A program made the position numbers and the translations under genes. The notes below the pieces were generated by a model. It ran no database searches. It was not told the origin of the DNA and worked only from the letters and a program-made list of their open reading frames with translations. Positions 25,403-41,592 of a stretch of DNA of 64,000 nt are shown in pieces. Each line of letters begins with the position of its first letter. Within the stretch, counting starts at the first letter, position 1. The DNA comes from Pelagicoccus sp. SDUM812005 (GTDB taxonomy: Bacteria > Verrucomicrobiota > Verrucomicrobiia > Opitutales > Opitutaceae), in contig NZ_JARXIA010000010.1 in NCBI RefSeq assembly GCF_031127875.1, positions 124,001-188,000 of the forward strand. Reading direction: 5' to 3'.

Positions 25403-26953
25403 ATGAATCGTTCAACCAATAATAATGCGCAGCGCTTCGGCGCTTTGTTTTCGACTGCTTGCTTGTTGCTATCTAGCCAGCACGCGTTTGCAGGCGGATC
25501 CGACGTCTGGTTTCAGCCGCTCACCGAATCGGCTCCCGTTGTTCCCCCCAACCACATCGAGGAGCTGCTAGAGCCCTGGGTCGCTCCTTACGGCCTCATG
25601 CAGACCAATCTCGTCAGCCTCCGCGAAGTCGAGGACGAGGTTTTGAGCCCCTTGCAGTCCATCGTGCGCGTACCTGCTGGCAACTCTTCCTCCATGTTCG
25701 ACATGGTTGCCTACGACGACACGGGAGAGTTTCTGTTCATTCCGCACGAAACGCCTTTCGGTGCCGGAGTATCGCGGCACGATATGGCGGCCCGCTCCAC
25801 GGAAGTGATTTTCCAAGGTGACGGAGGTGGAGCCGAGGGCGACTGGAGCGGCGACTTCGGCGCTTTCGACCCCTGCCGCTACACTCCCAACGGTACGCTC
25901 CTGCTTGCCGAGGAATGGACCGGCGAAGGCCGCGTCATGGAGGTTCTCAATCCTTTCGACGCCCCCGAAGACGTGGTCGTCCGCGAATTGGACAGCATCG
26001 CCAACGTGGCCCACGAAGGCATCAATTTCAGCCTGCAAGACTCCAAGGTTATCTACTACATCGACGAGTGGAATTCGGGCTCGATCTACAAGTTCGTCAT
26101 GAAGCGGGCCGGCGACTATACTCGTGGCCAAACTTTCGTGCTCAAGGTGGACGCCTACGATGGCAATGCTGCGGAGTACTGGAACGAAGGCACGAACGTA
26201 AACGCCCAGCGCACGGGCTTGGCCACTTGGATTCCGCTCACGGACCGCAATGGCAATGTGCTTCCCGGTATCACGGATCCATTCCGGAACGGTCCTACCA
26301 ACGACCCACGTACGAATTCCGACACGCGTGGCGGCCGTCCCGCGGCGGACGACGTTGGGGCCACTCCTTACGGACGTCCTGAGGATATGGAAGTAGGCGA
26401 GTTGGCCAACGGGAACGAAGTTCTCTACATAGCCGTCACCTCGGAAGCGTCTGTCTACACGGTGGAAATGCTCGGACGCAACAAGGCTAAGGTCGGCAAG
26501 CTGGTCGATGGATCGAACACCCCGAAGAATGTCGGTTTCGCTCCCACTACTGGCGTATTGAATTCTCCTGACAATCTTGCCCAAGACGCGATCGGTAACA
26601 TCTACATCATCGAGGACGCGCCGAACGGTTCGAGCACTGGCGGCGACGTTTGGTTCGCTCGCGACGTGGACAACGATGGCGTAGCGGAATCCCTCGACCA
26701 CTTTTTGAGTATCCAAGTCGATGGCTCCGAGGCGACTGGTATGATCTTCAATCCCGTTAAGCCAACCGAGTTCGTACTTGCGGTACAGCATCCGGACAGC
26801 ACTAACCTCGCCAACGTGCCGAACGGCCTTGGGGATGCCCTGTGGAAGTTCGAGATCTCCGACAGTGACTTCGATCGCGCCGTAAAGATCAAGCAGTTGC
26901 GCGACTACTGGAAGCGCCGCAAGCACTCCTTCTGGGGCAAGCTCTGGTGGTAA
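25403..26953 (+). CDS. PhoX-like alkaline phosphatase / DUF839 family protein
   Basis: 516 residues with a signal peptide (cleavage near HAFA-GG). The central part shows DUF839/PhoX features: a beta-propeller with LLLAEEWTGEGRVMEV, HEGINFSLQDSKVIYYIDEW, YGRPEDMEV and LNSPDNLAQDAIGNIYIIEDAP, ending with a basic tail. PhoX enzymes are calcium/iron phosphatases exported to the periplasm. Here I would expect phosphate-ester hydrolysis, but metal ligands could not all be checked. The start is the ATG before the signal peptide. It is monocistronic, with a strong terminator behind it. Confidence 0.8.
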   Translation: MNRSTNNNAQRFGALFSTACLLLSSQHAFAGGSDVWFQPLTESAPVVPPNHIEELLEPWVAPYGLMQTNLVSLREVEDEVLSPLQSIVRVPAGNSSSMFDMVAYDDTGEFLFIPHETPFGAGVSRHDMAARSTEVIFQGDGGGAEGDWSGDFGAFDPCRYTPNGTLLLAEEWTGEGRVMEVLNPFDAPEDVVVRELDSIANVAHEGINFSLQDSKVIYYIDEWNSGSIYKFVMKRAGDYTRGQTFVLKVDAYDGNAAEYWNEGTNVNAQRTGLATWIPLTDRNGNVLPGITDPFRNGPTNDPRTNSDTRGGRPAADDVGATPYGRPEDMEVGELANGNEVLYIAVTSEASVYTVEMLGRNKAKVGKLVDGSNTPKNVGFAPTTGVLNSPDNLAQDAIGNIYIIEDAPNGSSTGGDVWFARDVDNDGVAESLDHFLSIQVDGSEATGMIFNPVKPTEFVLAVQHPDSTNLANVPNGLGDALWKFEISDSDFDRAVKIKQLRDYWKRRKHSFWGKLWW

Positions 26954-27177: not shown

Positions 27178-28122
27178 CTACGATTCGTCGTGGGGCAGGT
27201 AGAATTGGGAGAGCTGGCTTAGGATTCCTTCGAGCTTATCGAAGTATTCTTCCTCGCTCAGGTATTCCTTTTTAGAATACAAAAGTTCGAGCTCGGTTTC
27301 GAGGCGATGGCGTTCTTCACGCTGGGCGGGACTTAAGTCCACCCTGCTAAGCTGGGGCGAGAGGCTTAAGTTGCGAGCAAAGCGACCTTCGCTCGCTGGC
27401 GCCTGAGCCTTAGGTATCAGGCGGAGACCGGAGAACTGGCTGGCAGGTGTTCCTTTGCCATCCCCATTGTCGTCGATAAGCGCGTGCTCGCTGCTTAAGC
27501 GTCCTGCTTCCTTGTAGAAGGTCTCCGTAGCGGCGGAGGCGCTCAGAAAGGCTTCGAGGAGGGATACGCTAGCATCGCGGTCGATATCGCTGGTTTCGCT
27601 TGCCAGAGCTTGTGCGAAGAACTCGCCGAATCGGGCGTAGTTGAGTTCCGTAGGGCTGCGCGTTGCGGTGATAATCACGCGGTTCTCGCCTGCCAGTTTG
27701 GAAAGGAAAGGGGAACTGGCGGAACCGCCATGGATGAAAACGAGCTCTTCTTTCTTATCGGCTAGCCATTCAGCTAGTTCGCTGGCGGATAGGTCGTCGC
27801 CCGGAAGGTTGAGCTTGGCGCCGCCGGCGTTGTAGGTGCCGTGTCCGAGGTAAGCGATCCAGAGGCTGGACGCTTGCCTTCGCTCGGGAGACTCAATCCA
27901 AGCGTGTATCCGCTTTTTCGATGCCTCGCCGGCGTTTTTCGGACTAACGAGCGTGAAATCGGCGTTGGCTTGCTTTGTTAGGTTGCTCCAAAGTTCGGCT
28001 GCCTTGCTAAACCCCTGCTCGAACTCCGGGCCTCCGGCAGCGCCTTGGATGAGTAGGACGTGTTGCTTCGCCGGTGAGAGGGTGGCAACGGCAAGGAGAG
28101 TGAGCGTGAGGAAAAATTTCAT
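27178..28122 (-). CDS. Caspase-like (clan CD) exported protein without visible catalytic Cys
   Basis: 314 residues with a signal peptide (MKFFLTLTLLAVATLSPA). The body resembles a C13/caspase-like fold: QHVLLIQGAAG strand, SLWIAYLGHGTYN with the catalytic-type His94, LVFIHGGSASSPFL (130-140) and VIITATRSPTELNYARFGEFFAQAL. In clan CD the second element normally holds Cys, as in (D/E)ACxSG; here the aligned residue is Gly133. The C-terminal ~70 residues are coiled-coil and charged. It is the last gene of the MoxR cluster and overlaps the previous stop by four bases. It is probably a non-proteolytic binding module. Confidence 0.65.
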   Translation of the reverse strand: MKFFLTLTLLAVATLSPAKQHVLLIQGAAGGPEFEQGFSKAAELWSNLTKQANADFTLVSPKNAGEASKKRIHAWIESPERRQASSLWIAYLGHGTYNAGGAKLNLPGDDLSASELAEWLADKKEELVFIHGGSASSPFLSKLAGENRVIITATRSPTELNYARFGEFFAQALASETSDIDRDASVSLLEAFLSASAATETFYKEAGRLSSEHALIDDNGDGKGTPASQFSGLRLIPKAQAPASEGRFARNLSLSPQLSRVDLSPAQREERHRLETELELLYSKKEYLSEEEYFDKLEGILSQLSQFYLPHDES

Positions 28123-30449
28123 GCCAAGCCTCTCTTTCTTCTAAGCAACCATTCGGAAAGGAAGGCGCTCAAGGCCAGCAGGAAGAGCCAATTGCGGTGC
28201 CAAAGAGGTTCGGACCAGGTTTCCATGACAGGTGAGGAGCGAGCGTTCAGGATTTCGTGAAGGCCTCCCAACGCGGAGATGCTGAGGACTTCGCCTCCGG
28301 TGGCCCTCGCAAGCGTTTCCAGGTATTGAGGGTTTGGTGACAGGTTTTGCAGTTCCTTAACCAAGGGTTGGTAGACCCAGCCCGTTTCCGCTTCGCCGAT
28401 CCGTTTTCCACCTAGGTCGTAGACGCTTATCTTAGCTCGGTAGGCGCCGGATTCGGGAAGGGCAACTTTGCTGGTAAATTGTCCGGGCGAATTGGATACC
28501 AACTTCATCTCGTATTCCCGAGCTTGCTCCGCTTTGTCTACGCGTTCGAGGGATAAGGTTGCCGTGCCGGCCGCGAGCGGAACGAATTCGCTGTCTCTAG
28601 CGATGGCTTTGAGCGTTACGCTCGATTCGCTTACTTCGGAGGCGGTGAGCTCGACGCGATTCGGGTTGTCTTTGACCAACCAGCGCGAGACCTGTCGCCA
28701 GAATTGAGCGAGGTCGGCTTGGGAGCTCGGCGTTTGCATTCCCCATCGCCAAAAGTCGCCGACAGCTACGGTGGCGACCCGTCCCGTACCGAAGCGTTGA
28801 GTCACGAGGGCGGGATAGCTTTCTCCCTGGAGGTCCTCGATCGTGGCAAGCGTTTGAGCGCCGGGCTTGGTTCTCTGCGTGGCATTGAAGACGCGGAAGC
28901 TTGGCATCGCCAGGATGCGGGATTGCTCTTCTGTCTCGAAAGGACGGATACGCATCCAAGGTTCCACCCAGCCATTGCGGGTCAGGTCCCAGCGGGCGGA
29001 CTTGTCGAAAGAGTTCGAAGGGCCCATGCCGTCGAGGTAGAGCGGCAGGACTTGGGCGATGGGGGTGTTTTGGTAGTTTCCGTCTTCGAGGGCGTTCACG
29101 CCTCCGAGGACCAGCAGCCCACCGCCGCGTTGCTTCACGAAGTCGCGTATCAAGGTTTGCTGGCTGAAGGAAAAGAAGTCGGCTTCGAGGTCGTCTATGA
29201 TGATGGCGTCGTAGGCGAACAGTTCTTCCGCTTCGTCCGGGAAACCGGTTTTGAGCTCGTTTTCGTCGCGCGCGTTCATGCGGATGAGAACCGCTTCGTC
29301 GTAGCGCTCCGTTTCGTCCTCGCGTCCGAAGCCCCGATAAAGGGCGTTGGAGTTCTCGCCAGCTCGGCTCTTGAATTCGAATTTCGGCTCACGGTTGGCG
29401 ACCCTTAGCAGCCCTACCAAGTCCAGTTGCGGATCGGAGGCGAGGGCTCGGTTGAGGAATTTGTATTCCCAATTGGGACGGCCCGTTACGTAGAGAATGC
29501 GATAGCTGTCCTTGCCACGATCCACCGCGAAAAGCTGGCGGTTGTTGTCGAGGGTGGCTTCCGTGGCGTTGGGATCTTCGGCGAAGCTCGACAGCTCGAA
29601 AAACTGGATACCGCCGCCGGGGGCCTTCCATTCGTAGCTGTAGCGATCTTCGTTTTCGATCACGTTGGTGCGCGAGTGGAGGGGAGCCGCGGAGGTTTGA
29701 GAGAGTTGGTTTCCACTGTCGATTCGCTTGAGTTGGGTACGCACCGCTTGTTCCGAAAGATGGCTCTGGCGCAGGGTGGCAGTGAGGCGGAGAGGAGAAT
29801 CGCCGAAGGCGGATTGCTCGACCCGGAGGTCCTGTATCGAAAGATCGCTGACGCGGTCGCTTTCGCCGACCACAATAGGGAAGACGGGAGGAAGCTCCGC
29901 CAGTTCCTCTGGGGTCAGCTCCATGTCGGTTCGGTTCCCGTCTGAGAAGAGCACGATCCCGGCTACGGGTTTGTTTCGAAGCCGCTCCGCGAGGTTCTTG
30001 AGGGAGGAGCCAATGGCGCTTTCTTCGCCGGTGAAATCGAGCGTTTCGAATCCGGCCGTACGGCGCAGCTGGGAATCGAATTGGTAGCTGCGGACTTGGT
30101 AGTCGTCGCGCAAGCTGCCCATCCAGGCTTGGCTGGAATCGCTCAATCGTTGGCGTAGCTGGTCGCCGCGGCTGAGAGATTGACTGCCTTCGCGGATGGC
30201 GAGCCCCTTGCTGTTGTCCGCGACCAAGGCGACGATGTTAGCCCCTTGCACGGGTCGCTCGCCGACTATCTGGGGATCTGCGATGGCGAAGGCCACGAAG
30301 AGGATGCCCAAGACGCGAAGGGAAAGGGCAATAAGACGCATGGGGCCCGGCTTGTCGCTGCCGGACTTCCAGGAAAGCCAGCTCAAGGGGAGCAATACGA
30401 TCAATGCGATTGCGAAGGCGAGCCAAGGGATGTTGCTAGTGAAAGTCAT
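28119..30449 (-). CDS. Membrane protein with VWA-like and glutamine-amidotransferase-like domains
   Basis: 776 residues from the ATG at 30449; the frame upstream is inside the neighbouring gene. Two membrane helices open the protein (IPWLAFAIALIVLLPLSWLSW and LIALSLRVLGILFVAFAIADPQ) and one closes it (WLFLLALSAFLSEWLL), followed by RRKRG. Residues ~65-215 form a VWA-like domain with a weak metal site (VADNSKGLAI, IVLFSDGNRTD). Around 360-530 lies a GATase1-like module (YDAIIIDDLEADFFSF...GGGLLVLGG) without a catalytic Cys. This architecture recurs in MoxR-cluster proteins of Planctomycetota and Verrucomicrobiota. The function is unknown. Confidence 0.72.
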   Translation of the reverse strand: MTFTSNIPWLAFAIALIVLLPLSWLSWKSGSDKPGPMRLIALSLRVLGILFVAFAIADPQIVGERPVQGANIVALVADNSKGLAIREGSQSLSRGDQLRQRLSDSSQAWMGSLRDDYQVRSYQFDSQLRRTAGFETLDFTGEESAIGSSLKNLAERLRNKPVAGIVLFSDGNRTDMELTPEELAELPPVFPIVVGESDRVSDLSIQDLRVEQSAFGDSPLRLTATLRQSHLSEQAVRTQLKRIDSGNQLSQTSAAPLHSRTNVIENEDRYSYEWKAPGGGIQFFELSSFAEDPNATEATLDNNRQLFAVDRGKDSYRILYVTGRPNWEYKFLNRALASDPQLDLVGLLRVANREPKFEFKSRAGENSNALYRGFGREDETERYDEAVLIRMNARDENELKTGFPDEAEELFAYDAIIIDDLEADFFSFSQQTLIRDFVKQRGGGLLVLGGVNALEDGNYQNTPIAQVLPLYLDGMGPSNSFDKSARWDLTRNGWVEPWMRIRPFETEEQSRILAMPSFRVFNATQRTKPGAQTLATIEDLQGESYPALVTQRFGTGRVATVAVGDFWRWGMQTPSSQADLAQFWRQVSRWLVKDNPNRVELTASEVSESSVTLKAIARDSEFVPLAAGTATLSLERVDKAEQAREYEMKLVSNSPGQFTSKVALPESGAYRAKISVYDLGGKRIGEAETGWVYQPLVKELQNLSPNPQYLETLARATGGEVLSISALGGLHEILNARSSPVMETWSEPLWHRNWLFLLALSAFLSEWLLRRKRGLA

Positions 30450-30453
30450 GAGG

Positions 30454-33400
30454 CTAGTCGTTGCCGAGCGATTCGTAGTAGCTGCGCACGATCTTGTTGT
30501 ACTCGTCGGGGACTGGATCCCGATCGATCGGCTGCAGCGTATCGGTTCCTTGGGTACGGCGCAATTCCTCGGCCAGCCAAGCCCTGACTTCACCTAAGGG
30601 TTGGGCGATTTGCTCTTCGATCATCTCCCACTGGGGGAGTTCTCCGTGACGCTTGAAGTCGCGTCGCATGCTTTCTGCGGTTTCCCGCGCTTCGCTCACT
30701 CTGCCGCGAACGTTTGGCTCTTCGAGAAGCGATTCCACCGTATTGAGACTGTCGATCCACTCGCTGAAGGAGGCGCCGGTGAGAGGTCCGCCCCCGGTCT
30801 GCTGGAAGTCAGACAAGGCGTTGCGGAGCTGCTCGCGAAGTCCGCCGCCTCCGCCTGCGGAACCTTCGCTTGGGGAACCATCGCTTGGGGAGCCTTGGCT
30901 TGGAGAACCTTCGCCGGCCTCGCTGCCGGGGTTGCCGGAGGCTTGCGAGCTGGAGGTTTCGCTTTGCCGTTCGGATTCGAGTTGTTGGTTGAGGGCATCG
31001 ATCTCAGCTTGGGCGAATTGCAGGGTAGCTTCCGCGGTGCCGAGAACGCTTTCGGCCGCTTCCGAAATCGATTCGCTCAGGGTGGAGAGATCGCGGGACA
31101 GGCCGCGTTGCCCGCGACGCGCTTCGTCGAGGAAACCTTGGCGAAGGTAGAGAGAGCTTTCATCGTAGCGCTCCTCGTAGCGGTCCTTGTTGTTGTCGCG
31201 AAGAATCTGATACAAGTCGCGAAACAAGCCAGGCTCCACGTTTTCCGAGGCTTCCGCTATTTCCCGGACTTGATCCAGCAATTCGTTCAATTGGCGGGAT
31301 TGCTCTTCGATTTGTCGAGCAAGCCCTTCTCGTTCGCCGGAGTCGTCGAGCTTGCGCTGGGAAGTGTCGCTGAGTCCGTCCAGCTGCTTCTCCAGCTCCT
31401 CTTGCTTTTGGGATAAGTCGGACGCTCGGGATCGGGTTTCCCGCAAGGCTTCGGAAAATTCGCTGCTATTGGATTCCCGCATCTGTTCCCGACTTTGGTC
31501 CAAGGTATTTCGGGCTCGCGTGCCGGACGCGAGCGCTTGCGAAACGCGTCCTTCTTCCAGGCTTTCGCTGGCGTCGCGCATGTTTTCGCGAACGTCTTCC
31601 AGCTGTTCCCTGAGCTGGCGGGTGCTTTGCCGATTGCCCGCTTGTTGCATGGCCTCGTCAGCGTCCGCAAGCATTTGGCGTTGCTCTTCCTCGAGCCGCT
31701 TGAGCTCGCGCTCGATGCGCTGGCGTTCCTCTTCGGTTTCCGCGAGGGCGAGGTCGCTCTGCATTTCCTGCAGGCGCTGGTTGATGTCGTTTTGGCGTCG
31801 CGAGAGTTCGGTGAGCTTGGCGATCAGCTCCAGGTCCTTCTTGTCGTCGGGATTGCTGAGAGCCTGAGCTTGGGAAGCGGTTTCGTAGCGGCTGTCCTCC
31901 TGGCGGAAGTCGAGCTCGTTGAGCTGGGCCTGGTTGCGAGAGGCACCGCCGCCCGAACCTTGCTGCGAATTTTGGGAACGGGAAACATTGAACTCGTCGT
32001 CGCTCAGCTTTACCAGGCGGTCGTAAGCTCCCTGGGCGTCGCTCCAAGCCAGTTCCAGCGGATCGAGGCTCGGCAGGTCGATGGCTTGGCCCAAGCCCAC
32101 GTCGACTCCCTCCATAAAGCGCTGGGCCTCGCTGGCTATTTGCACGGACTTTGCTTCACGCAACTGAGGAATCAGTTCCTGCAGCTCTTCGATGGCTTCG
32201 ATCTGGCTAGTCTGTACGACATCTAGGTTTTCGCGTTCCGATTCCGCTTGGGTAGCAGAATTCTTGATACGGAAGAGGGAGATGGCGATACGGCGCTGCT
32301 TTTCCAAAAGTTCGAGGCCTTGCTCTCCGGCTTGGCCTTGGCCGGAGCCGCCTTGGTCCTGTTCGCGGAAAATCTCCTCGAGGCTGCGTACGTCGGCAAA
32401 ATAGAGGTCCCCGCTGGTTTGTCGAAGCTCGCCGTTGGGGCCGTAGTCGGAGGCCCACAAATACCAGCTGAACGTGTCCCTTGGCTCGACCCCGTATTCC
32501 TCGAGCTTGAGCAAGTAGTTTAGCTTTTGCTCGAAAACCGGAGCGCCGTCGGTTGAGCCAGCAAGCGAAAGAGTGGATGGCTTTTCGCCGGGAAAAGCGA
32601 AAGCGATTCCGTAGTCGAGCAAGCCAAAGTCGTCGGCGATGTTCGCGTTGAAGAGAACTTCCTCCAGCGGCGAGACGCGGAGATCGCCGCGAGGGGCCTC
32701 GACTTTGAGGATGGGCCGTTTGTTCAGAATTGTTTCGATACGTATTTCCGAGGGAAATTGGTTCTTGCGTCCTGCTTCGTCCTCAAGGTGCAGCGTGTAG
32801 ACTTCGGAACTTTGCAAGGTGGACTCGAGGAGGAACTGGGTGCGGTATTCGTCGACTGGATGCAGGGTGGTGAGCTTTCCTTGCTTGTTTCTCAGGTAGG
32901 CGTCCTTGACTGGTTTGTTGACGTTGAACGTGTAGGAGAGCTGAGTTCCTTCGATGGCGGAAAGGCGGAGGGTGTCCTGAACGGTGCGTTTTTCCCAACC
33001 CGTGTACTGCGGGAATTCGAGCTCTGCGTTCGCGTTCAGGAGCTTAGGCAGGTCGTAGACCTGCACGCGGTGCAAGTCGCTTGCCTGCTCCGCAAAGTTG
33101 ACTCGGTAGCTCAGCGGGGATTCCACACCTTGTAGGGAAAAGGCAAATACGGGATCCGAAAGGCTCTTTGCCATGCGGTGACTTACAGTTTCTCCGGATT
33201 CGTAGAGCAGCTCCAGGTCGACCTCCTTGGGGAGCGTCCCTCCAAAGCGGGCGGTGATGACGATGGAGGAACCGCGCTCGATTTCGGTGTCGCCCGGTTC
33301 CACTGCGACGGTAGTGGGGAGGTTCGTGCGGCTGGCCAAGGTGTCTGCTTCGCCGTCCCGCCAAGTGTTCGCATGGAAGCAGGCGTAAAGGCTGAAAACG

Positions 33401-33885
33401 AGTATGCTTAGGGCCCCGAGGTGGGCGAATATGCTTCTGCCGGCGTCGGACTTCGCCACGCGGTGCCAGTTGGCCGCGCTTTGCGAAGCGAGCGCTTCGG
33501 AGGCAACCTTGTTGGCGAAGAAACCGGTATCGCTCGCAAGGCTTTGCTGGACAGCGGTGACGAGGGCCTGTTTCAAATCGGGATTCTCGGACTCGATGCG
33601 TCGAGCGGCCCTGAGGTAATCGAGGTGGACTCGGTTTTCCTGACGGTAGGAGAGGACGAGGGAAAGCAGCACGCTAAGCAAGCCGACCCCTGCTGCGATG
33701 CCGGCAAGGGAAGGAAGAAAGTAAGCGATCGCAGCGGCTCCGGAGCAAATCGCAAAAGCGAGAAGGAAGGCGCGGGTCCGCAGCTGGAGTCGCTCCCGAT
33801 CGCGAAGCCGCTTGGCGACCGGGTAGAGCGCGTAACGAAGCTTGAGGTGAGGCAGATGGGCTTGCTCTGGAAGTTTCGGTTTCAT
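30454..33885 (-). CDS. DUF4175-family large membrane/coiled-coil protein
   Basis: 1143 residues. Two or three helices near the N-terminus (LLAFAICSGAAAIAYFLPSLAGIAAGVGLL, LGALSILVFSLYACFH) anchor a large periplasmic part. That part has beta-sandwich-like repeats (about 200-480) and then long Gln/Glu/Arg coiled coils (about 600-950). Near residues 990-1010 is a low-complexity G-S-P-S-(Q/D/E) repeat. The order fits DUF4175, known from MoxR clusters. It sits four bases before the VWA/GATase gene and overlaps the BatA/VWA stop. It probably forms the scaffold of a membrane complex with its neighbours. Confidence 0.78.
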   Translation of the reverse strand: MKPKLPEQAHLPHLKLRYALYPVAKRLRDRERLQLRTRAFLLAFAICSGAAAIAYFLPSLAGIAAGVGLLSVLLSLVLSYRQENRVHLDYLRAARRIESENPDLKQALVTAVQQSLASDTGFFANKVASEALASQSAANWHRVAKSDAGRSIFAHLGALSILVFSLYACFHANTWRDGEADTLASRTNLPTTVAVEPGDTEIERGSSIVITARFGGTLPKEVDLELLYESGETVSHRMAKSLSDPVFAFSLQGVESPLSYRVNFAEQASDLHRVQVYDLPKLLNANAELEFPQYTGWEKRTVQDTLRLSAIEGTQLSYTFNVNKPVKDAYLRNKQGKLTTLHPVDEYRTQFLLESTLQSSEVYTLHLEDEAGRKNQFPSEIRIETILNKRPILKVEAPRGDLRVSPLEEVLFNANIADDFGLLDYGIAFAFPGEKPSTLSLAGSTDGAPVFEQKLNYLLKLEEYGVEPRDTFSWYLWASDYGPNGELRQTSGDLYFADVRSLEEIFREQDQGGSGQGQAGEQGLELLEKQRRIAISLFRIKNSATQAESERENLDVVQTSQIEAIEELQELIPQLREAKSVQIASEAQRFMEGVDVGLGQAIDLPSLDPLELAWSDAQGAYDRLVKLSDDEFNVSRSQNSQQGSGGGASRNQAQLNELDFRQEDSRYETASQAQALSNPDDKKDLELIAKLTELSRRQNDINQRLQEMQSDLALAETEEERQRIERELKRLEEEQRQMLADADEAMQQAGNRQSTRQLREQLEDVRENMRDASESLEEGRVSQALASGTRARNTLDQSREQMRESNSSEFSEALRETRSRASDLSQKQEELEKQLDGLSDTSQRKLDDSGEREGLARQIEEQSRQLNELLDQVREIAEASENVEPGLFRDLYQILRDNNKDRYEERYDESSLYLRQGFLDEARRGQRGLSRDLSTLSESISEAAESVLGTAEATLQFAQAEIDALNQQLESERQSETSSSQASGNPGSEAGEGSPSQGSPSDGSPSEGSAGGGGGLREQLRNALSDFQQTGGGPLTGASFSEWIDSLNTVESLLEEPNVRGRVSEARETAESMRRDFKRHGELPQWEMIEEQIAQPLGEVRAWLAEELRRTQGTDTLQPIDRDPVPDEYNKIVRSYYESLGND
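30861..30920. repeat. 15-bp tandem repeat inside DUF4175 gene
   Basis: Four 15-base units (aaccttcgcttgggg, aaccatcgcttgggg, agccttggcttggag, aaccttcgccggcct) encode the reverse-strand repeat G-S-P-S-(Q/D/E). Such a repeat can vary in copy number by slippage. Confidence 0.7.
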
Positions 33886-35906
33886 TGCGGCAAGGCCTCT
33901 CTCCTTTGTATCGATTTAATTGCGACAAAGCTCTCCAAAGCCAGCAGGGCAAGAACCAGCCAAAGCAACCATTGCCAAAGGCGCTGGCGCTCTTCGGTAC
34001 GCGTAGCCGATTCTGCTGCCGATTGGGAAAGGATACGTTCTATTTGGGCGAGCGCAACGGATTCGTCGAAGTCCGGCAAGCCGAGCTGCTCCCAGGCGTC
34101 GAGTGTGATGGGATTGGTCCTGCTTTCTTCCGGATTCGATTGCAGGGCAATCCAGCGGTTTTCCGTGTTTGGGACCTGGTAGAGCCCGACCTGGTCGATG
34201 CTTTGATCCGATAAAATCGAAGCCAGGTGGGCGGCGTTGCCTTGGGTGAGAGCAAGGTTGCTGGGGAGGGGCGGACCTCCTGAGGCTCCGAGCACGAAGC
34301 GATGCAAGAAAGGAATGAACTTGCTGGAAAGCACCCACTGGGAGGCTTGGGGCGACCAACTGCCGCTCCAGACGTAGAGCGAGCCTTGGCCGATCTGTAT
34401 TTCGCTCAAAAGCGGACTGTTGTCGTCGAATCGTGCGAGGTGCCGCGCTTCGAGATCTGATGGAGGTTCTAGCTCGGGCGCCTCCCAGGTGTTTATGTTC
34501 GCGAAGTTGCTGAAGCGCGGCGAGGCGAAGGGACGGAAGAAGGCGTGGTTGAAATCGGTTTCGCCAATGAGCAGCTTGTCCTGCTTGGGCCGTTCGTTGA
34601 GGATCCAAGAATCGCTTGCGGTCAGGACGTTCAATGTATCGACAAACTGGCTACCGTTGACCAGGAGCAAGGCGGTTTTTCCGTTTTCCAGTTCGCGTCG
34701 CAAGGCGCTTGCTTCGTTGCTGGAAAGTGGTCGGTCCACGAGGTAGGCGTGGTGGCTAGAGTTGGAGGGCGATTGCGGATCGAGTCGGGTGAGCGGAGAC
34801 TCGAAACCCTGCACGGCTTTCGAAATGAAATAGGGCACCGCCTTTTCGAAGTCGGTTGCGGATTCGCTGAAAAGTCCGATGCTGACTCGAGGAATGAACT
34901 CGGGGGCGATGGGAAGTTTGTTGTCGTAGACTTGCTGGTCTCCTTCGAGCACGAAGACGAGGGGGCTGTTCTGCAGCGACTTTTCAACCGGTAGGCTAAC
35001 GACTGTTTCTGAAGCGCCTTCCAGCACGAACTCGCGGGTGGAAGCTGGGATTGCGCGGCCGGAGGCGTCTTGTATCGAGATTGTCGCTACGGTGCGACGG
35101 TTCGGTTGGCTGGTCGCGATCGCTATCTGGGCCACGGGGCCTGAATCTTCCGTTTCGCTCCAGCTGATCCAGCGCAAGGAGAGATTGGGGCCGGGGTCCG
35201 AAAGAGTGATGGGAACGCGAGCGAGGCGAACGGACGGCGGCCAATCGATGAGCTCGATTTCGTTCAAGGAGGTGCCCTCTGAGAAATCGGATAGGAGATA
35301 AATTTCTCCGTATCCGGAAGCCGATGAACGTTCCCGTAGCCCTTGGATTTGGCTGACCGCTTCGGCGATCGCTTGGTCGAGTTCGCCGGGGAAGTTGGAA
35401 GGCGTCCACCTTTTGATCTGTTCGGCAGCGAAGGCCTTGCGTCGATCCGGGCTCAAGTCGGCCCACTGTTCGCTGGAAACGAGCGTCTCGATGGAATCGT
35501 TAAAGGAGAAGATACTAACCTGATCGCTCGGGGAAATCTTTTCTAAGATGGCAAGCGCTTCGTCCCGAGCCTGCGCTGCAAGTTCGGGCCGCGTCATGCT
35601 GAGGCTACTGTCGAGGGCGATGACGATGTCGCGGCGGATGTCGTTAGCGCTTGGTTGCTGCGATGTGTTGGGCAGGAAGGGACGGGCAAAGGCGAAGGCT
35701 AGCAGGGCGATGATCAAGCAACGCAGCAGGAGGAGCCAAGGATTTTGGATACGCCGACTTTTTTGCTGTTTCGGGGGACTCGGCTCCAAAAGGTCGGTGG
35801 AACTGAAGACGACACGATTGCGCGGCGTTTGCCGTATGAGGTGAAAGAGGACGGGACCGACGACTAGAGCGAGCCCGAGCAGGAATAAGGGGGCGAGGAA
35901 GCTCAT
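33882..35906 (-). CDS. BatA/VWA domain membrane protein
   Basis: 674 residues. The N-terminus MSFLAPLFLLGLALVVGPVLFHLIRQTPRNRVVFSS is the aerotolerance BatA-type motif with the first membrane helix. A second helix (WLLLLRCLIIALLAFAFARPF) precedes a VWA domain with a complete MIDAS start (VIALDSSLSM) and later PSDQVSIFSF and IYLLSDFSEG. A C-terminal helix (WLLWLVLALLALESFVAIKS) returns to the membrane. It is probably a metal-dependent protein-binding module for the MoxR ATPase. Its start overlaps the DUF58 stop by four bases. Confidence 0.82.
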   Translation of the reverse strand: MSFLAPLFLLGLALVVGPVLFHLIRQTPRNRVVFSSTDLLEPSPPKQQKSRRIQNPWLLLLRCLIIALLAFAFARPFLPNTSQQPSANDIRRDIVIALDSSLSMTRPELAAQARDEALAILEKISPSDQVSIFSFNDSIETLVSSEQWADLSPDRRKAFAAEQIKRWTPSNFPGELDQAIAEAVSQIQGLRERSSASGYGEIYLLSDFSEGTSLNEIELIDWPPSVRLARVPITLSDPGPNLSLRWISWSETEDSGPVAQIAIATSQPNRRTVATISIQDASGRAIPASTREFVLEGASETVVSLPVEKSLQNSPLVFVLEGDQQVYDNKLPIAPEFIPRVSIGLFSESATDFEKAVPYFISKAVQGFESPLTRLDPQSPSNSSHHAYLVDRPLSSNEASALRRELENGKTALLLVNGSQFVDTLNVLTASDSWILNERPKQDKLLIGETDFNHAFFRPFASPRFSNFANINTWEAPELEPPSDLEARHLARFDDNSPLLSEIQIGQGSLYVWSGSWSPQASQWVLSSKFIPFLHRFVLGASGGPPLPSNLALTQGNAAHLASILSDQSIDQVGLYQVPNTENRWIALQSNPEESRTNPITLDAWEQLGLPDFDESVALAQIERILSQSAAESATRTEERQRLWQWLLWLVLALLALESFVAIKSIQRREALPQ

Positions 35907-36811
35907 CGTCGGGCGGGTTGGTTCGTTCTTAGGTTACGGACGAAGTGGAGCAAGGCTTGGTCAAGCGGCTGGTCCGTAGTGATGGTTTGGTGACGCACTC
36001 CGGTCGAGCGAAAGACTTCTATCAGCTTCACTTGGCGTTCTTGGAAGCGATCTTGGTACCGGGATCGCAGGCTGTCCGGATCGACGTAGAGGGTTTCGCC
36101 GGATTCGATGTCCTCCCAGTAGGCAGACTTTCCGAAGTCGAGGCTGAGCTCCGCGGGATCGAGGACCTGCAAGGCTCTCACGTCGTGGCCCATGGCTCCG
36201 AGCTGGGCGAGGGCTTGCCTCCACTGCTCGGCATCGGACAGGAAATCGGAGATGAGGACGATCAATCCACGTTTGCGGCAGAGTCGCGACATGGATTGCA
36301 AGGTTTTCTCGATATTGGTGGAAAGGCCTTCGGCGCCTCGCTCTAGGAGAGCGAAAACACGTTTCAGGTGACCCGGTCGCCAGCGGGCATCGAGGTAGTC
36401 GGAAACATCCTCGTCGAAACGCGCGAGTCCCACGATGTCGCGTTGCTGGAGGAGAAAGTAAGAAAGGGTGGCTGCAAGGGTCTTAGCGTATTCGGACTTC
36501 GGGTACGTTCCAGAGGAAAATGCCATGGACTTGCTGGAATCCAAAGCGATGGTACAGCGAAGATTGGTTTCGTCCTCGAAGATTTTTAGGTACTCACGAT
36601 CGGTGCGGGCGAGGGCCTTCCAGTCTAGGTAGCGAAGGTCGTCGCCTTGGCTGTATTGGCGGTATTCCGAGAATTCGACCGAGAAGCCATGGTAGGGGCT
36701 GCGGTGCAAGCCGGACCAAAGGCCATCTACCACGATGCGGGCGCGGAGCTCCAGGTCGCGAATGGCGAGCAGGGCTTCGGGGTCGATGTTTTGGCTCGGC
36801 GTCGGTGGCAT
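35903..36811 (-). CDS. DUF58 domain protein
   Basis: 302 residues. The DUF58 hallmark SQGDDLRYLDWKALARTDREYLKIFEDETN is present, followed by a VWA-like segment with a MIDAS-type IALDSSKSM and a later GLIVLISDFLSD. It is cytoplasmic, with no membrane helix. DUF58 proteins nearly always accompany MoxR AAA+ ATPases and are thought to be their substrates or adaptors. It starts 24 bases after the moxR stop. Confidence 0.9.
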   Translation of the reverse strand: MPPTPSQNIDPEALLAIRDLELRARIVVDGLWSGLHRSPYHGFSVEFSEYRQYSQGDDLRYLDWKALARTDREYLKIFEDETNLRCTIALDSSKSMAFSSGTYPKSEYAKTLAATLSYFLLQQRDIVGLARFDEDVSDYLDARWRPGHLKRVFALLERGAEGLSTNIEKTLQSMSRLCRKRGLIVLISDFLSDAEQWRQALAQLGAMGHDVRALQVLDPAELSLDFGKSAYWEDIESGETLYVDPDSLRSRYQDRFQERQVKLIEVFRSTGVRHQTITTDQPLDQALLHFVRNLRTNQPARR

Positions 36812-36835: not shown

Positions 36836-37822
36836 CTAGACCGTTTCGATTAGTTCCTCGATCAAGGTTTCGACGGTTTTGGCTTCTGCTTCAGCCCGGT
36901 AGTTGAGCAGGATGCGGTGCCTGAGTACGGGTTTGGCGAGGGTGCGGATCTCGTCCTTGCTCACGTAGGATCGGCCTTCCCAGAGGGCGAGGGCTTTGGA
37001 TGCGAGCACCAGGGCTTGGGCGGCTCGAGTCCCGGCGCCCCAATTGATATATTTGTTGACGAACTCCGGCGAAGCGGCGGTCCCCGGGCGGCTGGCGGCG
37101 CAAAACTTGACGGCGTATTGTATGACGTCGTCGGATACGGGAACCTCCTTAACGAGGCCTTGGATGGCGATGACTTCCTCCGCGGTGAAGACTGGCTCGA
37201 TTCGTTCGTTGGAGCTGGTGGTGGTTCGGCGCACCACTTCGATTTCGTCCTCTTCCGGCAGGTAGTCGATGAGAACGTTGAATAGGAAGCGGTCCAGCTG
37301 AGCTTCCGGAAGCGGGTAGGTGCCCTCCATCTCCACCGGGTTTTGGGTCGCGAGTACGAAGAAGGGTTCCTCGAGGACGTGTCGCGCTCCAGCGGCGGTG
37401 ACCTGGTGCTCCTGCATGGCTTCCAGAAGGGCCGACTGGGTCTTCGGAGGTGTGCGGTTGATCTCGTCGGCGAGCAGGAGGTTGGTGAAGATCGGGCCTC
37501 GGACAAAGGTGAGCTGGCGGCCGTGATCGGTGTCGGTCAGGATTTCCGTTCCGGTAATGTCGGCGGGCATGAGGTCCGGAGTGAACTGGATCCGTTGGAA
37601 ATTAAGTTGGAAGATGTTGGAAATGGACTTCACGAGCAAGGTCTTGGCCAGCCCGGGCGCACCGGTAATCATGCAGTGTCCGCCGGCGAGCAAAGCGACG
37701 AGCAGTTGCTTGGTCACGTCCTTTTGGCCGACGATGACCTTGGAAAGTTCGCTTTCGACTTTTTGTCTGCCGGTTTGGATACGTTCGAAGATTTCCGACT
37801 GGGTTTGGATGGTGTCTGACAT
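36836..37822 (-). CDS. MoxR-family AAA+ ATPase
   Basis: 328 residues. Walker A GAPGLAKTLLVKS, Walker B LLLADEINRTPPKTQSALLEAMQE, sensor I ATQNPVEMEGTYPLPEAQLDRF and a C-terminal lid with ASPEFVNKYINWGAGTRAAQAL are clear. MoxR ATPases act as chaperones that load metals or mature complexes with VWA partners. Here it lies between DUF4159 (33 bases upstream) and DUF58. It supplies the energy for the otherwise enzyme-poor cluster. Confidence 0.94.
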   Translation of the reverse strand: MSDTIQTQSEIFERIQTGRQKVESELSKVIVGQKDVTKQLLVALLAGGHCMITGAPGLAKTLLVKSISNIFQLNFQRIQFTPDLMPADITGTEILTDTDHGRQLTFVRGPIFTNLLLADEINRTPPKTQSALLEAMQEHQVTAAGARHVLEEPFFVLATQNPVEMEGTYPLPEAQLDRFLFNVLIDYLPEEDEIEVVRRTTTSSNERIEPVFTAEEVIAIQGLVKEVPVSDDVIQYAVKFCAASRPGTAASPEFVNKYINWGAGTRAAQALVLASKALALWEGRSYVSKDEIRTLAKPVLRHRILLNYRAEAEAKTVETLIEELIETV

Positions 37823-37855: not shown

Positions 37856-38689
37856 TTAGTGCGTCATGGCGTAGACGATGATGTTTATGCCCATGGGGTA
37901 GGCTTTCTTTTCGGCGAATTCACGGAAGTACCATTCGGATTCGCCCTCGCGCTCCCAACCGTCGCCGAGGTCGGTATTGTGGCAGATGATGACGATCATG
38001 CGACCGTTGTCGTCGAAGATGGCTCGGTAGTGGACTTCGCGAGCGTCTTCGCGCTCCCAGGTGCGTCCCGTCCCTTGGTAGCTAAGGGCGTGGCGGATGG
38101 AGGGGACTTGAGGCTTTTCCTTGAGGTCGAACACGATGTGGAAGATGGGGTGCTCGATGGGGAGGTCGTGGAATTCGCGATCGGGGAAGACGCGTTTGAG
38201 TTCGTATTCTAAGTTGTACCATTCTTCCTCGCCCCAGAAATCGTCGATCATGAGAAACCCACCGTTGAGCAGGTAGGAGCGCAGGGCTTCGACTTCGCTT
38301 TCGCGGAAGGAAAGCGAGCCCGGCTCCACCATGTAGAGAAAGGGGTAGTCGGCTAGGTTGTCCTGGTCGAGGCGAACGACGGCGGAGTCCGGATTGACCT
38401 TGAGACTGGTCATTTGCTGGAGGCGATAGGCGAGGTTGAGCTCGGCGTCCGGGTAGTCGATCGCCCAGCGGCCGCGTCGCCCGCCCCAGCCACCGCCGCG
38501 GCCGAAGGAGTCGTATTCGATGCGGGCGAAGGTGAAGACATCCTCCTTGAACGCCGGCGAAACCTCCCACTCGGGCACCCCTGCGCGGTCGAGCATTTGA
38601 GAGCGTGCGAGCTGGAGGCTGCCCATCGTCAAGGCGAGCAGGAAGGCCAATGTCCAGCGTGGCAGGATGCGTTTAGTTGACGAAGTCAT
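37856..38689 (-). CDS. Exported DUF4159 domain protein
   Basis: 277 residues with a signal peptide (LAFLLALTMGSLQLARS). The mature part matches DUF4159: FTFARIEYDSFGRGGGWGGRRGRWAIDYPDAELNLAYRLQQMTSLKV, LVEPGSLSF-like MVEPGSLSFRESEVEALRSYLLNGGFLMIDDFWG, and EHPIFHIVFDL. The fold is GATase1-like without catalytic residues. It overlaps the metallopeptidase gene by 17 bases and is a regular member of MoxR clusters. Its function is unknown. Confidence 0.85.
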   Translation of the reverse strand: MTSSTKRILPRWTLAFLLALTMGSLQLARSQMLDRAGVPEWEVSPAFKEDVFTFARIEYDSFGRGGGWGGRRGRWAIDYPDAELNLAYRLQQMTSLKVNPDSAVVRLDQDNLADYPFLYMVEPGSLSFRESEVEALRSYLLNGGFLMIDDFWGEEEWYNLEYELKRVFPDREFHDLPIEHPIFHIVFDLKEKPQVPSIRHALSYQGTGRTWEREDAREVHYRAIFDDNGRMIVIICHNTDLGDGWEREGESEWYFREFAEKKAYPMGINIIVYAMTH

Positions 38690-41291
38690 TATTTAGGTCG
38701 AGAGCCTCCAGCGGATCGGGACCTTCCGCTTGGGCGATTTGGAGCTGGAGGTTCCTGAGAAGTTCGTAGGCCTCGGCAAAGCGCGGGGCGTCGGCAAGGG
38801 CTTGCAGCACGTGACGTTTGGCGCCTTCGGGGTCGGACTCTTGCGTCAGCTTGGCCATCTGGAAATGGAGGGAGGGGCGATCGGGCGTCTTGAGGGCGAG
38901 CAAGGCGGATACGGCTTCGATCGAGCGCGGCGGATGGTCGAGGGAACGGGAGGCGTCCAGTAAGGCGCGCCAAGGCGTTTCGGCCATGGGGTTGATCGCG
39001 AGCCAAGCGTTGGACCACTTGAAGGTCTCGCGCGGATCGCCGCTCTCCTTGGCGAGCTCGAGCAGGCGGGTTACGGGCGGAAGTCGATTCGCTTCGTGGC
39101 GCAGCATGTCCTCCAAGGTGGTCCTCTCCTGCTCCGCGTATCCGATGCCCCGATACGCTTGGGCGAGGGGCCAGTGGGCGTTTTCCTGTCCGGGCAGGTA
39201 GCCAGCCGTTTCGACCAGCTCGCTTAGCAGCTCGATGGCTTCGTTCCAGTTTTCAGCCTCTAGGGCTTGGCGGGCTTGGTCGAGCGAGTCGCTGTAGTTT
39301 TTCTGGGGCGAGGCCAGATTCAGAACGGCGCCGAGCGGACCGGAGGCGGAATCGAAGCGGTAGTCGCTGGCCAGCTCGGAAGCCTGCTGCCGGGCAAAGG
39401 CGGCGAAGCCCTCGTCCAATTCCGCGAGCGGGGCGAGGTGCTGCTCGAGTCCGTCGTTGATGGATACGCCTTCGCCCAAGGCAACGAGCAGGTGCCGCAA
39501 GGGTTCCAAGCCGAAGTTTTGGGCGATGTATTCAATGACTAGGTACGACTGGTAGTAGGCAAATTGGATATCTTCGCCGTCCTCGGCTTGCAGGAAGGCG
39601 GAGCTCATGGAGCTGATCGGCTGCATTTGGCCGGAGAGGATACGGTTGCGGTAGGAGGCGCTCATGCGCTGTCCCCAAGCGGGATTGGCCTCCTGTTCCT
39701 CGTAGACGGAGATTCCTTCCGACAGCCAGCGTGGCATGCGGTTGTTGGTAAGGTGCAGGGTGATGGTATGGCAAAATTCGTGGAAGAGTACGGCTTCCCA
39801 GTTGGCCGCTCGGGTGGAGGGGCTGTTGATGGTGAAAACCGGCCCGAAGCAGACGCCGAGGAAGCCCGGATTTCCGGGAACGCCGAAGGTGCGGGTTTCG
39901 AAGTCGGCGGGATTGGGATAGATTTCGACGGTGGTCTTTTGCGGCAGCTCGAGGCCGTAGCGTTGGGTGAGCCGGGCATGGGCGTCCTCGAGCACGCGGA
40001 GGGCCCGCTGTCCGTAGACGGGCGCCTCTTCCTTGCTCATGCGGATGAGGAAGCGTTCCGATTCGATGGTTTCGAAATCCTGCAAGCGGTCCCGCAGTGT
40101 GACGAGGTTGTAGGCGGAAATGTTGTAGGGGTCGGCTTCGTGCACGGCGTCGGCGAGGGGCCAGGCTTCCTCGTTGCGACCGAGGCGCAGGAGGTCCTGG
40201 GCGAGCTGGATGCGAGCGGGATTGAAGGTTTCGTCCAGCCCGAGGGCGATGCGCTGGTGGCTCGCTCCGTCGGAGAAGCGGTACTTGCGGGACAGCTGCT
40301 TGCCGATGCGATAGTCCACGCCGGGGTTGCCGGGCCAGGAGGAGAGGGCGGCGGCTCGAAGGGTGTCGCCGCTCTCGCTGTCGTTACGCAGGTAGGCCAG
40401 GGTGGCCTTGAGGGCGAGGGCATCCGGATGGCGGGGGTTGGTTTGCAGGGCGGCGTCCAGGTTTTGCTCGGCGGCTTCGAAGGACTCGGCGGCGAGGAAA
40501 TGCTCGGCGAGCAGGACCAGAGTGGCGGCGTGCCGCGGATTGATGGCGAGGGCTTGCTGGGCGTAGTTGATAAGCTGAGACCGGTCGCCTTCTTCGTAGG
40601 CGCAGGCCAGGCCGTAGAGGAGCTCGACGTGGTCGGGATATTCCAGGAGGCCTTCTTGGAAGGCCTTGGAGGCGAGCTTGAAATCGTCCTTGGACAAGGC
40701 GAGGTTCCCTGTACCGAGAAAAGCGGATACGGGCTTGCTGCTGAACTCCTGGGCCCGTCGGAAGAAGTTCTCCAGCACCAGCTTGGGTTCGACGTCGAAC
40801 AGGAGGGCGATGTGCCCGATGGCGACCACGTTTTCTGGATCGTAGGCGTAGCGGCGGGAGCGTTCGTTGACGAGATAGCCGAGGGCGTCCTTCTGGCGTT
40901 CGGCCTCCAGGCTGCGGCCCGTGTAGAGGGCGGCTTGGCGAAGGAGCAGGCGGGGGCGAATCTCGTAGGAGCGTTCCTTAACGTAGGCGTCCAGCGAGAC
41001 GTAGGCTTTTTCGTACTGGCCCAGGGCGAAGAGGGACTCCGCCTTGAGGATCTCCCAATCGGTAACCCAAGGGTCTAGCTCCTGGGCGGCTTGCGTGTAG
41101 TCGATGGCCTCCTCGTACTTGCCCGCATTGACGAGAACTCGGGCCCTTTCGAGGGTGGGCGCCTCGCTGAAGAGGTTCAGGACGTCCACTGCTCGGGCCT
41201 GCGGGAGGGCCAATAGGCAGGCGCAGAGCAGCCAGCCCAAGCGGATGGACTGGAGGCGTTTAGCGCGAATGAATCTGAGGCCGGTAGGCAC
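38673..41291 (-). CDS. Exported TPR protein with zinc-metallopeptidase (MA-like) domain
   Basis: 872 residues from a GTG, the only start that keeps the signal peptide (LGWLLCACLLALPQARA). Many TPR-type helices fill residues ~30-430 (e.g. EAIDYTQAAQELDPW, AQQALAINPRHAATLVLLAEHFL) and 640-860. Between them lies a gluzincin-type site, HEFCHTITLH with zinc ligands His504/His508 and Glu505, followed by PRWLSEGISVYEEQEANP, a peptidase-MA pattern with the third ligand region. It is first in the eight-gene cluster. It is predicted to be an active periplasmic peptidase that binds partners by its TPRs. Confidence 0.82.
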   Translation of the reverse strand: MPTGLRFIRAKRLQSIRLGWLLCACLLALPQARAVDVLNLFSEAPTLERARVLVNAGKYEEAIDYTQAAQELDPWVTDWEILKAESLFALGQYEKAYVSLDAYVKERSYEIRPRLLLRQAALYTGRSLEAERQKDALGYLVNERSRRYAYDPENVVAIGHIALLFDVEPKLVLENFFRRAQEFSSKPVSAFLGTGNLALSKDDFKLASKAFQEGLLEYPDHVELLYGLACAYEEGDRSQLINYAQQALAINPRHAATLVLLAEHFLAAESFEAAEQNLDAALQTNPRHPDALALKATLAYLRNDSESGDTLRAAALSSWPGNPGVDYRIGKQLSRKYRFSDGASHQRIALGLDETFNPARIQLAQDLLRLGRNEEAWPLADAVHEADPYNISAYNLVTLRDRLQDFETIESERFLIRMSKEEAPVYGQRALRVLEDAHARLTQRYGLELPQKTTVEIYPNPADFETRTFGVPGNPGFLGVCFGPVFTINSPSTRAANWEAVLFHEFCHTITLHLTNNRMPRWLSEGISVYEEQEANPAWGQRMSASYRNRILSGQMQPISSMSSAFLQAEDGEDIQFAYYQSYLVIEYIAQNFGLEPLRHLLVALGEGVSINDGLEQHLAPLAELDEGFAAFARQQASELASDYRFDSASGPLGAVLNLASPQKNYSDSLDQARQALEAENWNEAIELLSELVETAGYLPGQENAHWPLAQAYRGIGYAEQERTTLEDMLRHEANRLPPVTRLLELAKESGDPRETFKWSNAWLAINPMAETPWRALLDASRSLDHPPRSIEAVSALLALKTPDRPSLHFQMAKLTQESDPEGAKRHVLQALADAPRFAEAYELLRNLQLQIAQAEGPDPLEALDLNNDFVN

Positions 41292-41592
41292 GGGATTGGG
41301 ATTGGATTAGGCAGGTAGGTGCAGCACTGGAAAAGGAAACGGCTTGGGCTCGCTTCGGATTGCGTCGGCGAAGCGAGAGTTTTGCAGGGGCAAAAAGGCC
41401 CCCAGACTATGCCACCAAAGCTAGCGTCGCGCCACTCCAGAGCGGTGAAATTGGCGTTCAATTTTGCAGCACGGTCCGAGGGACGTAGGGAACGACCAGG
41501 GCAGGCGGGATGGGGCCGTTTCGCGGCAGGCGAAGCCTTTTTACGTTGCGGACGGGAAGTCAGGATCGCTTTGTCTGCATGCTTTCGCGTCG
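41292..41592. promoter_or_regulatory. Divergent intergenic region, MoxR cluster / EamA gene
   Basis: These 301 bases must hold the promoter of the eight-gene minus-strand cluster and that of the EamA gene. A short GGGGC/GCCCC hairpin lies near 41388-41403. No convincing -35/-10 pair, operator or small gene is visible; the open frames crossing it are continuations of real genes. Confidence 0.3.

Follow-up and report, generated by a model that had tools for sequence, protein, structure and literature searches.

The genes for MoxR, DUF58 and BatA proteins are neighbours, in this order, in MoxR-DUF58-BatA (Bat) operons. Peptidases of clan CD, which include the caspases and legumains, carry a glycine in front of their catalytic histidine (PMC12445089). 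Not all bacterial proteins with a caspase fold have kept their catalytic dyad: it is intact in 84% of the putative bacterial metacaspases and in 64% of those of Planctomycetes (PMC3501461), and one or both catalytic residues are substituted in 858 of 9,994 bacterial orthocaspases, 90% of these cases falling into Alphaproteobacteria and Cyanobacteria (PMC6426788). Such pseudo-orthocaspases are defined on the p20 domain, are described with Tyr instead of His and Ser instead of Cys, and form stable clades (PMC6426788). Furthermore, caspase-like domains have been linked with MoxR and vWA proteins in ternary conflict systems, in which about 70% of the caspase domains in effector position were called inactive (PMC7159879).

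Here, we analysed a gene that touches on each of these systems, located in a DNA stretch of 64,000 nucleotides (hereafter, the window). Its product is likely an exported, non-catalytic pseudo-protease of the legumain type that acts as the terminal extracytoplasmic subunit of an eight-gene MoxR-VWA envelope module and uses its former cleft and added helices for binding. The open reading frame at 27178–28122, described in the initial annotation as a caspase-like protein that had kept His and lost Cys, indeed exists and encodes 314 amino acids (P0001), but on the minus strand; read as a frame, the plus strand contains 10 stops across this interval. The gene is the last of its operon and shares a 4-base overlap with the preceding gene.

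A match to the pseudo-caspase was found in 22 of 57 genomes (the window's own genome and its relatives), with an open frame in all 22. To collect the family, genome contigs were scanned with one peptide pattern, which gave 535 candidate loci confirmed by tblastn, and the best 80 of the 535 were used. The final collection held 109 distinct members, from which ten distant ones (L037–L046) were set apart, leaving 99 orthologues including the window protein; 6 of the 99 rows are more than 90% identical to another row. Drawn from the best 80 of 535 loci, this set leans to close relatives of the window, and Cys-bearing members are possible among the other 455 loci or in other phyla. Close relatives of the window are named Pelagicoccus. 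Eighteen columns are identical in all 99 orthologues: Gly27, Gly30, Gly93, His94, Gly95, Gly108, Asp110, Asp179, Asp183, Ser187, Glu190, Glu212, Asp218, Asn219, Asp221, Gly232, Gly246 and Arg271. The open reading frame is a genuine conserved gene; a chance frame or a decaying one is ruled out by this conservation.

The AlphaFold2 model, built with 22 homologues as input, reached a mean pLDDT of 86.9 and a pTM of 0.82. Foldseek placed caspases on top among PDB structures (best E 4.5e-08), and a second structural aligner, with the Foldseek top 1000 as candidates, ranked human legumain first (Z 18.9, rmsd 2.5 Å over 196 residues, 14% identity), followed by other legumains, metacaspase 9 (Z 16.7), the GPI transamidase K subunit (16.4) and caspase-8 (16.0). 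With E values up to 1 admitted, the legumain family C13 (PF01650) was also the sole Pfam match of the window protein (E 0.0092), with a score of 16 bits under the curated cut-off of 22.8 bits; at the same threshold, 4 of 22 family members matched it, the strongest with 8.7e-05. By contrast, PF00656 (Peptidase_C14/p20) did not match the window protein even at this threshold and was absent among the Pfam families matching the 22 members. When the family profile was compared with that of C14 proteins from the own and related genomes, E was 9.1e-05 for a single comparison, with a probability of only 59%. Searched against solved structures by sequence, the single protein returned nothing convincing (best E 0.89), and the best profile match was a phosphogluconolactonase at E 0.15. 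Because structure prediction and structural matches, the C13 Pfam match and the C14 profile similarity agree, the predicted clan CD (caspase/legumain) fold is well supported. In the own genome, the pseudo-caspase has a single match and no second copy; PF01650 hits two other places weakly (E 0.0139 and 0.588, the second being a C14 protein), and PF00656 hits three places above cut-off and a fourth at E 0.298.

The histidine side of the active site is preserved. In the model, the Gly93-His94-Gly95 motif (27838–27846, minus strand) follows strand 86–92, and the GHG with His94 that the initial annotation had pointed out is indeed there, His being present in 99 of 99 orthologues. The second strand ends at residue 131, the next helix starts at 137, and the strand end and loop between them, the place that bears the Cys in clan CD enzymes (residues 131–139, HGGSASSPF; 27706–27732, minus strand), is without Cys in the window protein. 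The stretch previously read as FIHGGSASSP was thus described correctly, including Ser134 and Ser136. A Cys at position 133 or 134 occurs in 0 of 99 orthologues. Position 133 is occupied by Ala (43), Gly (33), Thr (12) or Ser (11), position 134 by Ser in 96 and Ala in 3, and position 136 by Ser in 96 and Gly in 3, while Pro138 is found in 96 and Phe139 in 98 orthologues. One of the Ser134Ala variants (L002) is 62% identical to the window protein and sits in a complete operon (L148). Any Cys within residues 130–137 is found in 27 orthologues, namely Cys132 in 26 (including 20 of the 29 members labelled Planctomycetota and 6 of the 51 labelled Verrucomicrobiota) and Cys135 in one (L103). A Cys at column 49 is present in 31 of 99, but inside helix 32–51. 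The three C14 proteins of the own genome, in comparison, have GHG and Asp-Ala-Cys intact at the corresponding stretches.

To place the missing residue, we ran hhalign 14 times with varied settings. Ten runs aligned the Cys region and four gave no alignment there. In 9 of the 10 aligning runs, residues 131 and 132 were matched to the Asp and Ala that precede the catalytic Cys, and opposite the Cys itself stood a gap in six of these nine and residue 133 in three; the tenth run had a shifted register, with residue 135 opposite the Cys. The register at this position thus varies with the settings, and of the three matches to residue 133, two came from runs in which gap costs had been raised and the probability was below 1%. 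The relative on a Gemmatirosa plasmid reads Asp-Ala-Ser-Ser-Ala-Ser in this region, which also indicates 133 as the Cys position. A comparison of secondary structure with a predicted C14 protein of the own genome (strand 142–149, Cys150, helix 152–156) was not decisive on the register, as the end of a strand may lie one or two residues away in either protein. At least 22 changes are needed at position 133 on a quick FastTree tree, as expected if no nucleophile is held there; position 134 requires a minimum of three changes. We conclude that, as far as the sequences were read, the nucleophile is missing in the family and Ser134 lies one step past its place. The "loss" of the Cys is inferred from active relatives, as no member with Cys133 occurs among the 99 orthologues.

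The ten distant relatives were also inspected at these columns. His is present at column 94 in eight of them. In L040, column 133 is a Cys, but His94 is replaced by Asp; L044 combines GHG with a Cys at column 135, and L042 has a Cys at column 131. None of the ten has His94 together with Cys133. Three of these relatives (L037, L038 and L040) are open frames of about 750–890 codons with an N-terminal pseudo-caspase-like domain and a transglutaminase-like domain further on; PF01841 was found in all three (under cut-off in L038), together with DUF3857 in L038. L039, L042 and L043 have similar lengths. A sister gene order, GATase1-like, DUF4159 and a distant caspase-like gene of about 370–440 aa, is seen in L174, L175 and L176, whose caspase-like genes also have no Cys at column 133. 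Two C14 caspase-like domains with intact His-Cys (L027 and L028) lie about 3–4 kb apart on contig C42 of the own genome, each toward the end of a long open frame.

Outside the active site, the N-terminus points to a location beyond the cytoplasm. Residues 1–18 (28069–28122, minus strand) form a probable Sec signal peptide, recognised by eye from a charged start, a hydrophobic core and an S-P-A end. By a simple hydropathy criterion, applied to frames running from stop to stop, 80 of the 87 orthologues tested have a hydrophobic segment ahead of the first strand, suggesting that most pseudo-caspase orthologues are probably exported. Residues 179–190 (27553–27588, minus strand) resemble an EF-hand-type loop by their spacing (D179-x-D181-x-D183...S187...E190), again recognised by eye; Asp179, Asp183, Ser187 and Glu190 are each found in 99 of 99 orthologues, and Pfam EF-hand_5 is matched weakly by five of 22 members (E 0.16 at best). 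A C14 protein of the own genome (L026) contains a similar Asp-rich stretch. The second acidic loop, DDNGDG at residues 217–222 (27457–27474, minus strand), is a putative metal site, possibly metal-binding, in which Asp218, Asn219 and Asp221 are each invariant in the 99 orthologues. Both acidic loops probably bind Ca2+. Close by, Glu212 is found in 99 and His213 in 97 of the 99. The charged C-terminus, noted earlier as a coiled-coil tail, corresponds in the model to a conserved pair of helices, 265–283 and 290–308 (residues 265–308; 27199–27330, minus strand), with Arg271 in 99, Tyr293 in 98 and Glu298 in 98 of 99 orthologues.

The pseudo-caspase closes an operon of eight genes on the minus strand, in which neighbours overlap or sit within 33 bases. 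The first gene (38673–41291) encodes a TPR protein with a gluzincin-type metallopeptidase domain (Peptidase_MA_2, PF13485, 1.1e-13; HEFCH...SEG). It is followed by genes for a DUF4159 protein (37856–38689; PF13709, 2.8e-56), a MoxR AAA+ ATPase (AAA_3; 36836–37822; PF07726, 3.7e-62), a DUF58 protein (35903–36811; PF01882, 2.3e-47) and a BatA-type VWA membrane protein (33882–35906; PF07584, 3.3e-19, and PF13519, 8.3e-07). The next gene (30454–33885) encodes a 1143-aa protein with a hydrophobic N-terminus and a long charged coiled-coil-like stretch, without a Pfam match over cut-off, which we presume to be DUF4175-like. Between it and the pseudo-caspase lies the gene for a GATase1-like membrane protein (28119–30593; PF07090, 1.7e-10), with a probable start at Met48 (30452), as matches in relatives begin near residue 48. 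Its N-terminal region appears VWA-like by eye, and Pfam gave no such match. At what we take to be the place of the class I amidotransferase Cys motif, its elbow (GGGLLVLGGVNAL) is apparently without a nucleophile; a nearby Cys, within a 16-residue stretch, occurs in 3 of 107 aligned rows. The flanking large open reading frames taken as genes, 25403–26953 downstream and 41464–42495 upstream, run in the opposite direction, and the operon therefore looks sharply bounded.

This arrangement is conserved. The GATase1-like gene lies directly upstream of the pseudo-caspase in 77 of the best 80 of 535 loci, the exceptions being L072, L094 and L104 (the last near a contig end), and in all 28 of loci L146–L173. 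All eight genes in the window's order were found in 20 of 27 orthologous loci (L147–L173, fetched with about 20 kb); in some of these 20, DUF4159 is present twice or the coiled-coil gene is broken up. Of the remaining seven loci, L167–L169, L171 and L172 show the module's downstream part; in L162, only the GATase1-like gene precedes the pseudo-caspase and the metallopeptidase is on the opposite strand, and in L173 the gene order is rotated and no DUF58 was found. Tandem DUF4159, counted as two matches instead of one, occurs in L155, L159, L161, L163 and L176. Plasmid 1 of Gemmatirosa kalamazoonensis (Gemmatimonadota) carries all eight genes in rotated order. Its pseudo-caspase (L146, about 11750–12672) lies in two frames, with the N-terminal strand in a different frame from the rest, reflecting either a sequencing error or a real frameshift. 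The presence of an active-looking metallopeptidase in the operon, remarked on in the initial annotation, holds beyond the window: all 23 loci read keep HExxH together with the glutamate of the SEG/TEG motif further downstream. As to the question of whether homologues in the same operon position all lack the Cys, Cys133 occurs in none of the 99 orthologues.

Across genomes, the two last genes of the operon occur together. With E<1e-100 required for the GATase1-like protein, it and the pseudo-caspase mark an identical set of 22 genomes out of 57. Among 240 genomes of the phylum, the 10 in which the GATase1-like protein occurs are those with the pseudo-caspase at E<1e-50; three genomes are shared by the two sets. 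Eight more phylum genomes have weak and distant pseudo-caspase matches, and most genomes sampled have neither gene. Beyond the phyla of the contig scan, the pseudo-caspase was found in 1 record, that of Gemmatirosa, among 72,556 plasmids and in none of 50,697 phage records.

How, then, does this protein compare with the described systems? To the legumain family (MEROPS C13/PF01650) it is linked by the best structural match, the sole Pfam match and the histidine loop. It differs in having no catalytic Cys, in scoring below the Pfam cut-off, in its place within a MoxR-VWA operon and in the added C-terminal helical pair. Measured against clan CD as a whole, the predicted fold and the His preceded by Gly are present, and the Cys after the second strand is absent. 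Because the catalytic Cys was looked for and not found, we do not file the protein as a member of either C13 or C14. With the bacterial pseudo-orthocaspases it has in common a caspase fold and a broken dyad maintained in a stable lineage (PMC6426788), but the present family keeps its His in all 99 orthologues and is not recognised by PF00656. Bacterial pseudo-caspases are thus known, and what is new is a Cys-less, His-keeping family outside the Pfam C14 model. Among the open-access PMC matches listed, no title describes this family or the eight-gene module.

The MoxR-vWA ternary conflict systems offer a second parallel, a dead caspase-like domain linked with MoxR and vWA (PMC7159879). There, however, the caspase domain is fused to the vWA protein (PMC7159879), whereas here it is a separate gene whose product is probably exported. 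It is, moreover, a constant part of a BatA/DUF58/DUF4159 operon, and the terms "BatA" and "DUF58" are absent from the main text of PMC7159879. The window MoxR matches bpMoxR (PF20030) with 39.7 bits (cut-off 27), but AAA_3 far better with 208.5 bits, and a VMAP, iSTAND, FtsH or beta-propeller third component is not among the Pfam matches of the eight proteins. An anti-phage defence system was considered and found no support in PADLOC: seven of the eight operon proteins had no match to its models at E up to 0.01, and the MoxR ATPase gave a weak DolB match (1.5e-05). The module resembles Bat operons in having MoxR, DUF58 and BatA in the same order, to which it adds DUF4159, the coiled-coil protein, the GATase1-like protein, the metallopeptidase and the pseudo-caspase. 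Together, the family is alike in kind to the known inactive caspases but is a separate, stand-alone, legumain-like one.

The missing Cys could also be accommodated by other explanations. The protein might have changed its chemistry and work as a hydrolase or transferase without Cys, using His94 with Ser134 or a metal in the acidic loops; the initial annotation had likewise suggested Ser134 or Ser136 as a substitute nucleophile. The strict conservation of His94, the near-constant Ser134 and Ser136, Glu212 and His213, and the conserved acidic loops would all fit. However, 3 of 99 orthologues lack Ser134 and 3 lack Ser136, one Ala134 variant has a complete operon, and neither serine was matched to the catalytic Cys in any of the 10 aligning hhalign runs. 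In addition, Ser136 stands directly ahead of helix 137–143, and a capping Ser is usual directly before a helix. The substitute serines are thus not supported, and we regard such chemistry as unlikely. The same ingredients, namely the invariant His, the conserved Ser134 and the acidic metal loops, would be read more ambitiously as a whole ancient branch of the caspase/legumain fold that extends across Planctomycetota and Verrucomicrobiota to at least one plasmid of Gemmatimonadota, uses non-cysteine chemistry and serves as the output enzyme of a MoxR-VWA envelope machine, which we judge more improbable still. A displaced nucleophile, with Cys132 active in Planctomycetota and subsequently lost in the window's branch, could draw on the 20 of 29 Planctomycetota members that have this residue. 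Yet 9 of 10 aligning runs pair residue 132 with the Ala that precedes the catalytic Cys, the other 73 orthologues have Thr, Gly, Ser, Ala or Leu there, and Cys132 requires at least seven changes on the quick tree, making this very improbable.

A different possibility is that the protein is a decoy or inhibitor, a pseudo-protease that holds in check the substrates or partners of an active protease, either the metallopeptidase or clan CD enzymes. Both candidates exist, the former in the same operon and the latter as the intact-motif C14 proteins of the own genome, and inactive caspase domains of MoxR-vWA systems have been interpreted as dominant-negative regulators or peptide-binding domains (PMC7159879). 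On the other hand, of the 9 among 19 relatives that carry the pseudo-caspase, three (G005, G008 and G038) have no C14 match; therefore, a C14 partner cannot be general, and overall we consider this role doubtful. That the gene is a functionless pseudogene in decay has only the loss of a catalytic residue in its favour, and is next to inconceivable given frames open in all 22 matching genomes, 18 identical columns across 99 orthologues and a fixed operon position.

We therefore return to the non-catalytic pseudo-protease, which the initial annotation had also raised and which the predicted fold, the kept His and the missing Cys in 99 orthologues support. The same Cys-less version recurs in the same operon of relatives, suggesting that the protein probably binds or regulates rather than cuts. 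With a small residue at the Cys position and the loop on the His side kept, it would leave peptides uncut, while the former substrate cleft and the C-terminal helical pair would bind either a peptide or another protein, for which the neighbouring GATase1-like protein is the most likely candidate. In this way it might present or sense substrates for the module, of which the metallopeptidase would be the only protease with intact motifs, with MoxR working from the cytoplasmic side. A point against the pseudo-protease is the invariant His94, which a simple loss of catalysis would not require; this residue may hold the cleft or a ligand.

Previous surveys of pseudo-caspases started from C14/p20 and found them mostly in Alphaproteobacteria and Cyanobacteria (PMC6426788), and the C14 model misses the present family. 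With one gene in one operon, the family provides a clean system for asking what role a dead caspase fold plays. Finally, a metallopeptidase whose motifs are intact and a pseudo-legumain are added, as two probably extracytoplasmic components, to the little-understood MoxR-DUF58-BatA machinery.
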